Below, piece by piece: positions 3,945 to 38,372 of a stretch of DNA of 64,000 bases. This DNA comes from Pseudobdellovibrionaceae bacterium (GTDB lineage Bacteria > Bdellovibrionota > Bdellovibrionia > Bdellovibrionales > UBA1609), in assembly GCA_947444305.1 (NCBI GenBank), contig CANEZP010000003.1, positions 62,001 through 126,000 on the forward strand, read 5' to 3'. Below the pieces are notes generated by a model, which did no database searches, was not told the DNA's origin, and was given only the letters and a program-made list of their open reading frames with translations. Numbering within the stretch: position 1 is the stretch's first letter; each line of letters begins with the position of its first letter. Both the position numbers and the translations under genes were made by a program.

Positions 3945-4493
3945 CTACTTAGGAACAAGGGGCACGAAAGTTTTTTTGTAGAGATCCCAAGAATCTTGGA
4001 TAACTTTGAAGGCCTCTTCTTGGTCAAAGAACTTTTCAACTTTAACGACCTTGTTTTCCAACCCTTTGTAGTCTTCGAAAAACCGCTGGATCTCTTTCAT
4101 CCGGTGCGGCGGCAAATCGCCTAAATTTTCGATGTGCGCGTATTCCGGATCGTCCGCATGAACGGCGATGATTTTATCATCGGCTTCGCCTTGATCCAAC
4201 ATCTTCATCACGCCGATCGGCTTCGCCCGCATGATGCAAAGCGGGACCGCACGTTCTTGGCCTAAAACCAGGATGTCGAGCGGATCGTTGTCTTCGCAAT
4301 AAGATTGGGGAATAAAACCGTAGTTCGCCGGGTATTGGACGGAACTAAACAAAATACGATCCATCTTGATCAGGCCGCTCTTTTTATCCAGTTCGTATTT
4401 CGCTTTTGAACCTTTGGGTATCTCGATCACCGCGCTTAAAATCTTCGGTGCTTCATCGCCGACGTCCACGTCGTGCCACGGATGCATAATCAC
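3945..4493 (-). CDS. ppa: Inorganic pyrophosphatase (family I)
   Basis: A 182-residue soluble family I pyrophosphatase, the usual bacterial length. It hydrolyses PPi to two phosphates with Mg2+ in the cytoplasm, pulling biosynthetic reactions forward. The family signature is visible as [10 protein letters not shown] (around residues 67-76) with the metal-binding Asp residues. The substrate-binding motif KYELDKKSG and the segment [10 protein letters not shown] are also typical. The start ATG at 4493 is preceded by AAAGGAG at good spacing. It stands alone between the pilin cluster and a divergent lipoprotein gene. Confidence 0.96.
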
Positions 4494-31028: not shown

Positions 31029-33131
<2,103 letters not shown>

Positions 33132-34604
33132 TTAGCGCGAAGTTTTGCGCACCAGCCAGCCGGGCTGGCGCTTCAACGCGGTCGGTATGTAATAGCCGAT
33201 CGAAATACCCGCGAAGCCCGAATTGACCGAGCCGATATTTTCACCCGAGCCGCTCGCTTCGCTCATGGCTTCTTTCCATACGCGATTGTCCTCGCCCGTG
33301 CGGCGGTAAAAAATCCTGCCGATCAAATGGTTCGTAAAAAAGTAGGAATAGCCCGCCTCGATCATCGTTTGGATCGAAACGTTTGAAACACGCCCTTCCA
33401 CGAGCGGCGTCGAGTACTTCACGCGCGACCACGTCACCATCGGAATAAGATCGGCGTAAACTAAACCGAAGCGGCCCATGTAACCGCCTTCGATGCCGTA
33501 CCCTCCGCTGACGTACCAGCGTTGAAATTCGGCGTCATTGAAGGGGACATACTTCGGAAAAACGATTCGTTTGGTCGATATGATCGCGGTCGGAACGAAA
33601 TTGAAAGTAAAATGGCCGAGCGTATTGAATCGATCGCGCTCGAGGCCCGCTAAACTCAGTGAGGAAAGATACTTCGCTAACTCTTCACCCTCGCCGTGCG
33701 CGGGTGCCTCTTTACCTTTGCTTTCTTGATTATTAATCTCAACCGTCGGCGTGTAATTCGCGAAGTTCAGAAAAACCGTGTTGGGTAAAAGATGAAAATA
33801 TTCGTTGAAGAAGGTCTTCGCGGTGAAGCGTTCGCGCAGCGACTGATTACCCGGCGTAATTTCCCAAGTGTAAGACGCTTTCACTTTGGTCGTGATGACG
33901 TCTTTCATCACGCCCTTCACGACGAAGGTGTCACCGCGCTTTTCCGCGGTCGAAACGAGAACGTGATCGACCTTCAAGTGCGACAATAGGCGATAGCGGT
34001 TTTCCCGGTCACGCGCGAGGCCCGAGTAAGAGCGATAGAACTGAAAACTCGGCGCCGTTTCTTCGTAATCCATGACGTTGAACTTTTCGGTCGCGCGTAG
34101 CTTCTCGTCGATGGCTAAACCAAGGGCATCGGCGGTGTCGACATCTACGCCCTGCGGGGGCGCGACCGCCACCTTCGACGGTTTGTGCACGATCGGCCAA
34201 ACGCCGCCCTTGCCAAAAACCTGCAAAGGCGGATCATCGGCGTCCCAAGCGGTGCCGGTCAGAATATCTACCGCCCATCCGAGCGGCGCGAAGGCTAAGA
34301 ACAAGCCGTTCATGCCGAAGCTATCGCCCCAACGATAATTTCGTTTTAACGAGACGTCCCGCCGTTCACCGTCGGGCATGACCATCTTTAATGAAGGCGC
34401 CGATGAGCGCCGAAGCCGCATGTAGTTAGGCGTGATCCCGATGAAGCGTTCGCAGTCGTAAACTTCCGCGCCCGGTGGATCGGAGAGAACCATGATCGTC
34501 TGCCGGTAATCGGCGTAATCGATCGAGGCGCAACCCGTCGCGAAATATGCGCCCAAAAATAAAAAAAGGAAGCCGCGGAAACGGCTTCCTTTTCGAAATT
34601 CCAT
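33132..34604 (-). CDS. PEGA-domain lipoprotein, unknown role
   Basis: 490 residues from ATG 34604 (MEFRKGSRFRGFLFLFLGAY, lipobox ATGC, Cys25). Residues about 35-65, SDPPGAEVYDCERFIGITP, match the PEGA domain often found on exported proteins. The middle resembles an exported signal or transport component, and the last 150 residues have alternating strands with aromatic belts (YMGRFGLVYADLIPM, IGYYIPTALK), compatible with an outer-membrane association. The start lies 16 bases after the histone gene stop, and codons 4-15 coincide with the stem of an intrinsic terminator. The stop abuts that of ligA. Confidence 0.75.
   Translation of the reverse strand: MEFRKGSRFRGFLFLFLGAYFATGCASIDYADYRQTIMVLSDPPGAEVYDCERFIGITPNYMRLRRSSAPSLKMVMPDGERRDVSLKRNYRWGDSFGMNGLFLAFAPLGWAVDILTGTAWDADDPPLQVFGKGGVWPIVHKPSKVAVAPPQGVDVDTADALGLAIDEKLRATEKFNVMDYEETAPSFQFYRSYSGLARDRENRYRLLSHLKVDHVLVSTAEKRGDTFVVKGVMKDVITTKVKASYTWEITPGNQSLRERFTAKTFFNEYFHLLPNTVFLNFANYTPTVEINNQESKGKEAPAHGEGEELAKYLSSLSLAGLERDRFNTLGHFTFNFVPTAIISTKRIVFPKYVPFNDAEFQRWYVSGGYGIEGGYMGRFGLVYADLIPMVTWSRVKYSTPLVEGRVSNVSIQTMIEAGYSYFFTNHLIGRIFYRRTGEDNRVWKEAMSEASGSGENIGSVNSGFAGISIGYYIPTALKRQPGWLVRKTSR
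34555..34593 (-). terminator. Intrinsic terminator of the histone gene, inside the next gene's start
   Basis: Minus strand: AAAAGGAAGCCG, loop TTTCCG, CGGCTTCCTTTT, then TTTATTTTT: a perfect 12-bp stem with a U-tract. It lies 27 bases after the histone stop and within codons 4-18 of the downstream lipoprotein gene. Confidence 0.9.
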
Positions 34605-34620
34605 ATTCAAACGCAATATT

Positions 34621-34818
34621 TTAGAGATGATCGATGACGATATCACGTGCCATAACGGTCTTGCGGCCGTCGGCTTTTGCGCTGTCGACGCCTTTTTGGC
34701 AAAGACGCTCAACGGCTTTGCTCAATACGTCGATAGTTTCCGCGGACGTGTTGCATCCCGCTTTTTCTTTAATGAACTTCTTAACTTTGCTGGTAACGAC
34801 CAGAACGTCTGCCATCAT
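34621..34818 (-). CDS. Bacterial histone-fold protein (HBb-like)
   Basis: 65 residues from ATG 34818 (or 64 from the adjacent ATG), with GGAGG five bases before. It is a single histone fold: helix 1 (about 8-19, SKVKKFIKEKAG), loop 1 (NTSAE), the long helix 2 (about 27-49, TIDVLSKAVERLCQKGVDSA), loop 2 with ADGRKTV, and helix 3 (MARDIVIDHL). GRKTV-x-x-x-D is the loop-2 DNA-contact motif of archaeal histones. Bdellovibrio bacteriovorus Bd0055 (HBb) is a known abundant chromatin protein of this type, a homodimer that binds DNA. It is alone on its transcript apart from the lipoprotein gene beyond the terminator. Confidence 0.92.
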   Translation of the reverse strand: MMADVLVVTSKVKKFIKEKAGCNTSAETIDVLSKAVERLCQKGVDSAKADGRKTVMARDIVIDHL

Positions 34819-35050
34819 TAGTTCCTCCACTCAATTCCATCCATTCAGTTCAATTCAGTTCGATTCGGCCTAAGAAGATTAAACCCATCTCAAATTAAAA
34901 GGGAAGCCATTTGAAGGTGGGGACGAGGCGACATGAGCGCCCCTTTCGGGCTAACGGTGACGTTTATTGTCGGGGAGAACTCCGTAAGCTACTGAATTGA
35001 CTATAGAAACGATCAGGATTCGTGGTCCTCATATTGCTCAGTGTCATAGC

Positions 35051-36442
35051 ATGGGCATGGGACACGCAAAGAACACAGTCATTACTCTAGTTTTATTGGC
35101 TTCGGCGTCCGCTTACGCGGCGATGATGAGCCCCGACGGTGAGTCTTATATTCCGCTCGTCCACGACGTGCAGAATGAAGATACCCCGCGTGAAACCTTC
35201 CCGCTTATGGAAGTGCCGCCGGATGCTCCGCCACCCCCGCGGAGCGAGGCTCAAGATTTTAAAACCGACCATGATTGGCGTGAACTTCGCGCGAAGATCT
35301 TGCGTGATTTCACCAATCGCATGAGCGCCGATTTCAAAATTGACGACGGTCTCCAGCAACGCACGGAATTCTGGTTTGATATCTACGCACGTTACGGTGA
35401 AGCGCACCACATCGTGCACCACGTTCGCTACCCCTGGATCGTTTATAAAATCGTCGACACGACGGACATGATTCAAAACGGAAAAGGCCCGCTGTGGCTG
35501 CGTCGTGATCGCGGCAACAAACTGGCGATCAAGACCGCCGCCGACGTTCGGAACGCTTTACGTAAGCTGGCTCACCGCAAGGATTACTCGAACCTGCCGG
35601 CCCTTGAAAAAGAACTCTACGATAAATTGTTGCCGCTCAAAGGTTCGCGCAAAAGCGTTTTCCGTTTGGCGAGCGAGAGCGTGCGCTCGCAACTTGGACA
35701 AAAAGATTTTTTCAAGCGCGGTCTGATCAACTCGTCCCGCTACTTGCCGTACATGGAGCTTGAGTTTAAAAAGCTCGGGTTGCCGACCGAATTGACCCGC
35801 ATGCCGTTTGTCGAATCGTCTTTCAACGAAGAAGCTTACTCAAAAGTCGGCGCATCGGGCATTTGGCAAATCATGCCGATGACCGGCAAGGCCTACATGA
35901 TGGTTAACCCCCAGATCGACGAGCGCAATTCGCCCCTTAAGGCCACGGTTGCGGCGGGGCGTTTGTTGCGTTCGTACAACCGCGCGATGGGTTCTTGGCC
36001 GTTAACGATCACTTCTTATAATCACGGCATCGGAAACATCCAAACCGCGATCAAGCGCGCTAAGTCGAAAGACTTAGCCGAGATCATCGCGCGTTACCAC
36101 AGCGGGGCCTTCCGGTTCGCTTCCTCGAATTTCTACACCTGCTTCCTCGCGGCGCTTTACGCCGAGAAGTACCACGATCTGATCTTTAAAGACGTCACTC
36201 GTGAACCGCTGCAAGAGCGGGAAGTTATCCGCCTGGCCGGCCGTACGAACGCACGGTTCCTGACGAAGATCACCGGCTTATCAAAGGCTGAGTTGCTTAA
36301 GTACAATTTAGATCTGACCGCGGCTTTCAAAGTAAACGCCAGCGTCCCGCGCGGCTTCAGCCTGCATCTTCCGCCTACGGCCGCCGGCCGTATGAACCGT
36401 CAAGCCGGCGCCGGCGAAAAGATCCGCAAACCCAAAGGTTAA
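35051..36442 (+). CDS. MltD-like lytic transglycosylase
   Basis: About 463 residues from ATG 35051 (second ATG 35057). A signal peptide ends ASAYA before AMMSPD. After a Pro-rich linker and a helical region, the SLT domain appears at about 250-390: LPYMELEFKKLGLPTEL, with the catalytic Glu in MPFVESSFNEEA, then SKVGASGIWQIMPMTG and SYNHG, the goose-lysozyme-like motifs. The enzyme cleaves the MurNAc-GlcNAc bond of murein to anhydro ends in the periplasm. A short C-terminal LysM-like tail (about 415-450) is degenerate. The in-frame TTG at 34997 is less likely. No Shine-Dalgarno is obvious. Confidence 0.9.
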   Translation: MGMGHAKNTVITLVLLASASAYAAMMSPDGESYIPLVHDVQNEDTPRETFPLMEVPPDAPPPPRSEAQDFKTDHDWRELRAKILRDFTNRMSADFKIDDGLQQRTEFWFDIYARYGEAHHIVHHVRYPWIVYKIVDTTDMIQNGKGPLWLRRDRGNKLAIKTAADVRNALRKLAHRKDYSNLPALEKELYDKLLPLKGSRKSVFRLASESVRSQLGQKDFFKRGLINSSRYLPYMELEFKKLGLPTELTRMPFVESSFNEEAYSKVGASGIWQIMPMTGKAYMMVNPQIDERNSPLKATVAAGRLLRSYNRAMGSWPLTITSYNHGIGNIQTAIKRAKSKDLAEIIARYHSGAFRFASSNFYTCFLAALYAEKYHDLIFKDVTREPLQEREVIRLAGRTNARFLTKITGLSKAELLKYNLDLTAAFKVNASVPRGFSLHLPPTAAGRMNRQAGAGEKIRKPKG

Positions 36443-36542: not shown

Positions 36543-36857
36543 ATGAATTCGCAGTTTAAAAAAGGTATTATGGAATTGTGTGTGCTCTCGCTGGTACGAA
36601 GCCGGGACTATTACGGCTACGAGCTAGTTGAAGAAATCTCTAAAAAAGTCGACATCGCCGAAGGTACGGTTTACCCCATCCTCCGCCGGCTCACCCAAGA
36701 AGGTTATTTCGAAACCTACCTCGAAGAATCCTCGAGCGGGCCGCCCCGCAAGTACTACCGTATCTCTAAGCTCGGAAAAACGATACAGGCCGAGCAGCTC
36801 GGCGAGTGGAAGGAATTTAACAAAAACATCAATTCATTACTGAAAGCAGGGGACTGA
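36543..36857 (+). CDS. PadR-family transcriptional regulator
   Basis: 104 residues, all of one winged-helix domain. The family pattern is clear: FKKGIMELCVLSLV, then YYGYELVEEISKK, then GTVYPILRRLTQEGYFETY and PRKYYRISKLGK. PadR proteins are dimeric repressors whose ligand or signal releases them from the operator. It is first of a three-gene unit with DUF1700 and DUF4097 proteins, an arrangement known from many bacteria and connected with envelope-stress or antibiotic responses. The DUF1700 start (GTG) lies one base after its stop. Confidence 0.93.
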   Translation: MNSQFKKGIMELCVLSLVRSRDYYGYELVEEISKKVDIAEGTVYPILRRLTQEGYFETYLEESSSGPPRKYYRISKLGKTIQAEQLGEWKEFNKNINSLLKAGD

Positions 36858-36858
36858 C

Positions 36859-37473
36859 GTGAAAACTAAAAAAGATTATATGCGGGAACTTGAGCGGCGT
36901 ATTCGCACGCTCCCCGCCGAAGACGCTCGCGAATTACTCGCCGATTACGAAGCCCACTTCACGGCGGGCCTCGAAGCCGGGAAAAGTGAGGAAGAAATCT
37001 GCCGCTCACTCGGCTCCGTACGTTCGGTCGCGCAAGAGATTTTAACCACCACCTGGGTTCGCCATCTCGATACCGCTCCTAAAAAGCTGCGCTCACCGGG
37101 CGCGATCCTCCAGATGCTCGTAATGATTTTGATTTTAGCGCCGTTTAACTTTTTCATGCTGATCTGCCCGTTTCTGATTTTATTCGTGTTGGTTTTCGCC
37201 GGTTGGACCATTCCGTTTGCGATCGGGGCAGTGGCCTTCGCCGGCATCGCGTTCTTTTGGCAGACGGCGGGTGATCCGATCGGTTTGCTCAACGGCGCTT
37301 CGCTCGTGTTTATTTTCCTAGGTACCGTCGGTCTCGCGTGTCTGAGCGGCCTCTTTATGTACGTGTGCACGAAGACGGCGTTTAAACTTCTGCTTTCGTT
37401 TTTCAAGTGGAACCTTGATTTAATTAATGCCCGCCGTCCTACCTCACCTCTTCTCGAAGGGAGAAACGCATGA
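36859..37473 (+). CDS. DUF1700 (HAAS domain) membrane protein
   Basis: 204 residues from GTG 36859. The N-terminal HAAS domain (LERRIRTLPAEDARELLADY, then HF, and EEEICRSLGSVRSVAQEI) is followed by four hydrophobic helices. DUF1700 proteins couple to PadR-controlled DUF4097 proteins; a sensory or modulating role in the cytoplasmic membrane is assumed. The stop overlaps the DUF4097 start by four bases. Confidence 0.88.
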   Translation: MKTKKDYMRELERRIRTLPAEDARELLADYEAHFTAGLEAGKSEEEICRSLGSVRSVAQEILTTTWVRHLDTAPKKLRSPGAILQMLVMILILAPFNFFMLICPFLILFVLVFAGWTIPFAIGAVAFAGIAFFWQTAGDPIGLLNGASLVFIFLGTVGLACLSGLFMYVCTKTAFKLLLSFFKWNLDLINARRPTSPLLEGRNA

Positions 37474-38372
37474 GCTTGTTTAAAAAGATTTTCTTGGGAA
37501 CTCTTATCTTCACGATGGCGTGCTTCACCATTGCTTGGGCCTTGCTCGCCGCCGGCGGCGGATCGACGGCGAGCACCTTCACGAAATTCCAATCACGACT
37601 GAATCAAGGACGGTGGATCGACGAACGCGAATCGGTTGATTTAAACGGAGTCGATACAATTACTGTTAATGCGGCTTCGGCCGATATTTTTATCGACAAA
37701 GAAGGTCACGCAAGTCCAGAAAACGAAGCGTTGATCGCTTACTCCGGGCTTTCCCAGCCGGGTGGCAAAACGCTCTCGGTTCAACGTGAAGGCAGTGAAC
37801 TCAAAGTGTCGGTAAACACGGGTAATACGACTGCGGTCAGTTTTAATTTCGACGATGGCCATGATGACGACGATGATGATGATGATGACGACGAGGACGC
37901 GGTGCAAGAGCCGACCTCGCGCAAAGGCTTAAAAATAATCGTACCGCCGAAGTTCTCCGGTAAAGTATTGCGGATCGAGGCGACGTCGGGCGACGTCACG
38001 TTAAAAAATATGAACGTTGCCGATCTTAATATTGAAAACGTATCCGGAGAAATACGCTTGATCGATAGCGGCACGCGCGACGCGGCAACGCTCATCACCA
38101 AGAGTGGCGACATCGAGGCCCAGCGTTTCAACGGAAAACTCCGAGCCACATCTACGTCCGGCGACGTCGAGATCAAAGAACCGGCGAACGGTGATCTCCT
38201 TGCCGAATCCACTTCCGGGGATATTTCGGTCACCATGCCCACGGCGATGGGGTGGAAGTTCTCATTGAGTTCGGTCAGTGGTGATCTAAAAAATGAATTT
38301 AGTGATGATGTGAAAGCAAACAAAAAGATGCAGTTGAATTCCACATCCGGCGATATTCGCGTGCATAGGTGA
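37470..38372 (+). CDS. DUF4097 family beta-helix-like protein with an acidic Asp run
   Basis: 300 residues. A single N-terminal membrane helix or signal anchor (about 5-30) precedes an exported domain made of short repeated strands with the recurrent motif TSGD (ATSGDVTL, TKSGDIEA, STSGDVEI, STSGDISV, STSGDIRV), the hallmark of DUF4097 proteins, likely a right-handed beta-helix. At about 127-146 there is an Asp-rich insert (ten Asp in a row in HDDDDDDDDDDEDA). It is the effector of the PadR/DUF1700 unit. Confidence 0.88.
   Translation: MSLFKKIFLGTLIFTMACFTIAWALLAAGGGSTASTFTKFQSRLNQGRWIDERESVDLNGVDTITVNAASADIFIDKEGHASPENEALIAYSGLSQPGGKTLSVQREGSELKVSVNTGNTTAVSFNFDDGHDDDDDDDDDDEDAVQEPTSRKGLKIIVPPKFSGKVLRIEATSGDVTLKNMNVADLNIENVSGEIRLIDSGTRDAATLITKSGDIEAQRFNGKLRATSTSGDVEIKEPANGDLLAESTSGDISVTMPTAMGWKFSLSSVSGDLKNEFSDDVKANKKMQLNSTSGDIRVHR

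Follow-up and report, generated by a model that had tools for sequence, protein, structure and literature searches.

Does the short open reading frame at 34621–34818 encode a bacterial histone and, if so, which kind of histone is it and what do its two cysteines do? The frame lies in the window, the stretch of 64,000 nucleotides that was analyzed. The first-pass annotation had its coordinates exactly right but gave no strand; the gene is on the minus strand, and the plus-strand reading of 34621–34818 yields an unrelated peptide. The frame runs from an ATG at 34818 to a stop codon at 34621–34623, and its product is MMADVLVVTSKVKKFIKEKAGCNTSAETIDVLSKAVERLCQKGVDSAKADGRKTVMARDIVIDHL. A second in-frame ATG lies at 34815. 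Since relatives begin at this second Met (MAD/MAE...), it is probably the true start, which would give a product of 64 amino acids. Residue numbering here follows HBb, with M1 as the second Met. A 69-residue frame from a GTG at 34830 was discarded because its start overlaps the ribosome-binding site. The gene and its flanking signals are as follows.

34621–34818, minus strand: gene for a bacterial histone of the HBb/Bd0055 type, 65 codons when counted from the first ATG
34824–34828, minus strand: Shine-Dalgarno GGAGG, seen in the sequence directly upstream of the ATGATG start
34563–34594, minus strand: intrinsic terminator of the histone gene, with a 14-bp stem and a T-rich tail

The GGAGG lies 5 bases 5′ of the first ATG, and a site of this type also precedes most orthologues. 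Hairpin-plus-T terminators likewise stand after most of them; in the window, the fold of the terminator region (34545–34625) has a z score of −4.2. A promoter scan for the histone gene returned nothing beyond a chance-level match.

The product matches the Pfam family CBFD_NFYB_HMF (PF00808) at 21.9 bits, just over the cut-off of 21.4. Its score of 24 bits against the NCBIfam archaeal-histone model (cut-off 50) is as expected of a divergent bacterial histone. When solved structures were searched with phmmer, the top two matches were deposited forms of Bdellovibrio bacteriovorus HBb/Bd0055 (E = 6e-30 and 9e-30); counted from the phmmer alignment, 55 of 64 residues are identical to HBb (PDB 8CMP, 8FVX), or ∼86%. 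The next match was the archaeal face-to-face (FtF) histone HTkC (9F2C; E = 2e-6). AlphaFold2, run on the monomer with 23 sequences, gave a mean pLDDT of 86.5, with helices at residues 2–20 and 26–49 and a three-residue turn at 57–59. Foldseek found five PDB matches below an E value of 1e-3, all of them HBb (6e-7 to 3e-6), and a second structural comparison gave a Z score of 8.3 to 8FVX. The single-histone-fold protein proposed by the first-pass annotation is thus borne out by the PF00808 and HBb matches and by the predicted structure; neither outcome that it had named as refuting, a profile search with no histone hit or a predicted structure lacking the fold, was seen. The GRKTV...D motif that it placed in loop 2 is present as GRKTVMARD. 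Its description of a "full" helix-loop-helix-loop-helix fold is right as to the fold and overstates the third helix, which is only about one turn long. This one-turn α3 and a shortened α2 (AlphaFold2, Foldseek), together with high sequence similarity to HBb, place the protein among the bacterial dimer histones, a category that is defined by sequence clustering. The RKTxxxD loop-2 motif and the R51/D58 clamp are present, and R51, K52 and T53 occur in all 98 distinct HBb-like orthologues.

Within the phylum, 333 of 369 genomes hold a match to the window histone at E ≤ 1e-3, a set that goes beyond HBb orthologues and whose more distant members include longer ZZ-type frames. Eighty related loci were found in named genomes, nearly all of them labeled Bdellovibrionales, Bdellovibrionaceae or similar. 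An orthologue in a related genome is 98% identical, with a dN/dS of ∼0.012. Comparison of the window gene with one relative (L003) gives 16 synonymous and 2 other changes (dN/dS ∼0.012), comparison with a locus of the same genus (L005) gives a dN/dS of 0.033, and across pairs with a computable dS the ratio is about 0.012–0.037. The histone gene is under strong purifying selection. Because of the Pfam match, the HBb match and the 98% identical orthologue with its low dN/dS, 34621–34818 is a real gene and not a chance open reading frame.

The position of the gene was compared through its neighbors.

33132–34604, minus strand: lipoprotein-like gene (MEFRKGSRFRGFLFLFLGAYFATGC...), downstream of the histone gene, between it and ligA
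31056–33131, plus strand: ligA (NAD-dependent DNA ligase by homology), convergent neighbor and synteny marker
34997–36442, plus strand: SLT lytic transglycosylase gene, divergent, a neighbor kept in 21 of 80 loci

Of the 80 loci, 75 have ligA downstream of the histone in convergent orientation; in 55 the two are no more than 300 bp apart, and in 61 gatC lies on the far side of ligA. The same convergent ligA stands beside the histone in B. bacteriovorus strain kdesi (L042). Gene position, in addition to sequence, therefore supports orthology with HBb. The histone-ligA-gatCAB neighborhood (31056–34818 in the window) is widespread in Bdellovibrionales, and ligA is usually the immediate convergent neighbor of the histone; some lineages have 0.4–3.3 kb between the two. 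What fills this interval differs: L003 carries, on the opposite strand, a gene resembling a transporter, and L005 a lipoprotein gene, a homologue of the lipoprotein-like gene at the same place as in the window. The window copy of that gene had no Pfam match and probably plays no part in the histone's function. The histone terminator sits within its first codons, which encode the signal peptide (34563–34604, minus strand). The same overlap is seen in L005, where the lipoprotein ATG is at 4214, the hairpin runs from about 4218 and the T-rich tail of the terminator encodes hydrophobic signal-peptide residues. This overlap could keep read-through transcription of the lipoprotein gene low. Elsewhere in the window (36543–38372), a PadR regulator, a HAAS-domain protein and a DUF4097 "toastrack" protein are encoded in tandem, likely as a co-regulated membrane-associated cassette.

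The residues of HBb that make the main DNA contacts are N22, R57, S9, T53, T8, S24, K10, K12, K52 and K16, of which N22 has the most contacts in simulations; D49, R51 and D58 form its clamp (Hu et al., PMC11317129). The window histone has all ten contact residues as well as the R51/D58 clamp with D49; among them are the α1 TSK motif and DNA-contacting lysines (T8, S9, K10, K12 and K16), which are conserved. Contact and clamp residues are nearly invariant across the 98 distinct orthologues. This analysis establishes the protein's identity and fold, its contact residues, the synteny of its locus and the purifying selection on its gene.

HBb ranks 12th in abundance among 2,125 proteins, is enriched in the nucleoid and is probably important for growth (Hocher et al., PMC10627809). 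It is a dimer in solution, bends DNA and binds it non-specifically, and attempts to delete its gene failed (Hu et al., PMC11317129). The geometry of binding is disputed, with straight, sheathed DNA in one crystal (PMC10627809) and bending in solution (PMC11317129). From this published work, HBb is abundant, nucleoid-associated, DNA-bending and probably essential. By analogy with HBb, the window histone would share dimerization, bending, abundance and essentiality. We are almost certain that it is an HBb orthologue, an α3-truncated "bacterial dimer" that likely dimerizes and bends or compacts DNA alongside HU/IHF, and whose cysteines are not a redox switch. Most likely it would form a head-to-tail homodimer through helix 2. 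The dimer would bind DNA without sequence specificity, contacting phosphates through the start of helix 1 (T8, S9, K10, K12, K16) and the paired loops L1 and L2 (N22, S24, K52, T53, R57). It would act as an abundant nucleoid protein that bends and compacts the chromosome alongside HU/IHF, and Cys21 and Cys39 most likely sit at hydrophobic positions.

The cysteines were the basis of a different proposal. The first-pass annotation had suggested redox-dependent behavior if the two, Cys21 in loop 1 and Cys39 in helix 2, are kept in relatives. Cys39 is present in 95 of the 98 orthologues (otherwise Leu in two and Ile in one), position 21 holds Cys in 54 of them, with 38 Met, three Phe, two Tyr and one Leu in the others, and both cysteines are present in 53, frequencies that are somewhat inflated because the search patterns for the first 80 loci included both cysteines (to lessen this bias, a further 40, more distant, were retrieved by position). 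HBb also has Cys39, and the ZZ paralogue described below has a Cys at the corresponding position. Retention thus fails for Cys21. An HBb orthologue with redox-dependent DNA binding or oligomerization, through an intermolecular disulfide or through oxidation of Cys21, gains some appeal from these frequencies and from the place of Cys21 directly before N22, the top DNA-contact residue of HBb. We nevertheless regard it as very unlikely: position 21 is Met in B. bacteriovorus HBb and Met, Phe, Tyr or Leu in 44 of the 98, and Cys39 gives way to Leu or Ile where it varies. The hydrophobic substitutes at both positions therefore favor packing over a conserved redox function and leave the suggestion unsupported. 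Judging from the crossing of helix 2 near residue 35, Cys39–Cys39′ and Cys21–Cys39 would be too distant from each other within one dimer to form a disulfide. The text of Hu et al. (PMC11317129) makes no mention of cysteine, disulfide, redox or DTT, Hocher et al. (PMC10627809) name cysteine only as a mass-spectrometry modification, and a literature search on cysteines in HBb found no paper. It is likewise very unlikely that, with a lineage-dependent residue (mainly Cys or Met) beside the main DNA-contacting Asn, Cys lineages could differ from B. bacteriovorus in their response to oxidation, with Cys39 in a separate role. Across the loci (L003–L111), the Cys (TGC/TGT) and Met (ATG) codons at position 21 differ at all three bases, and the Phe and Tyr codons are possible intermediates. 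The residue counts, with Cys39 near-invariant and position 21 Cys or Met, show which HBb cysteine variants merit making.

That the protein is instead an FtF tetrameric histone that wraps DNA, like HTkC or HLp, is extremely improbable: both belong to the same α3-truncated family and rank next after HBb in the structural comparison, but the sequence is far nearer to HBb (6e-30 versus 2e-6 for 9F2C), and bacterial dimers are told from FtF histones by lost interface residues (Schwab et al., PMC11390915), the helix-2-end Arg of 9F2C being Ser in the window protein, as in HBb.

The HBb orthologue is not the only histone of its genome (4.17 Mb, 29 contigs). A second histone of 175 amino acids is encoded on contig 10 (L002:1483–2010). 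Its N terminus carries C12, C15, C28, C33, C47, H51 and H57 in a Cys4/C2H2-like arrangement and its histone fold is C-terminal, which matches the description of ZZ histones (PMC11390915). Each of the genus's four genomes carries this paralogue, the copies in the other three being 67% identical. The genome also holds three HU/IHF-family genes; the histones here therefore supplement HU/IHF, as has been published for B. bacteriovorus (PMC10627809), and the contrast with HU/IHF drawn by the first-pass annotation is misleading. Two ferritin/Dps-family matches were found. One of them (G000:C5:158207–158626) has one in-frame TAA inside the matched stretch, which could mean either a broken gene or a match that overruns the end of a gene.

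The window protein is an ordinary HBb orthologue of its lineage, a local copy of an already crystallized and studied bacterial histone, and the picture published in 2023–2025 is unchanged. It is a further clear example of the HBb family, from an uncultured Bdellovibrionales genus related to the predator Bdellovibrio, in which the gene, neighbors and DNA-binding surface of HBb are conserved. HBb (PDB 8CMP, 8FVX, 8FW7, 9EZZ, 9F0E) has the same length, fold, ten DNA-contact residues and RD clamp with D49, and both proteins have Cys39 and A48 where archaeal histones have His. They differ at nine of 64 positions (window to HBb: D3E, F14L, A19G, G20Q, C21M, V35I, R37Q, Q40L, D44E). The convergent ligA is common to the window locus and the HBb locus of a B. 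bacteriovorus genome; unlike the HBb locus, the window has a lipoprotein-like gene between histone and ligA. ZZ histones (Bd3044 type; PMC11390915) have a histone-fold domain of the same α3 class, to which the window histone is 41% identical in the paralogue from its own genome; the window protein (64/65 amino acids) consists of the histone fold only, without the N-terminal Cys4/C2H2 zinc-finger domain. The FtF histones HTkC (9F2C) and HLp of Leptospira perolatii (9QT0) share the truncated helix 3, the RKT loop 2 and the RD clamp, but they form tetramers and match the window protein much more weakly than HBb does. At the end of helix 2, the Arg of HTkC (IKRAQAEGRK) aligns with Ser in the window protein (VDSAKADGRK), as in HBb, in the phmmer alignment. 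The archaeal nucleosomal histones HMfA and HMfB share the histone fold and the GRKT...D motif; compared with them, the window histone has shorter helices 2 and 3 and lacks the tetramer His. It also lacks the sprocket Arg of loop 1, a loss already described for bacterial histones (PMC10627809), and has Asn22 in its place, as do all 98 HBb-like orthologues.
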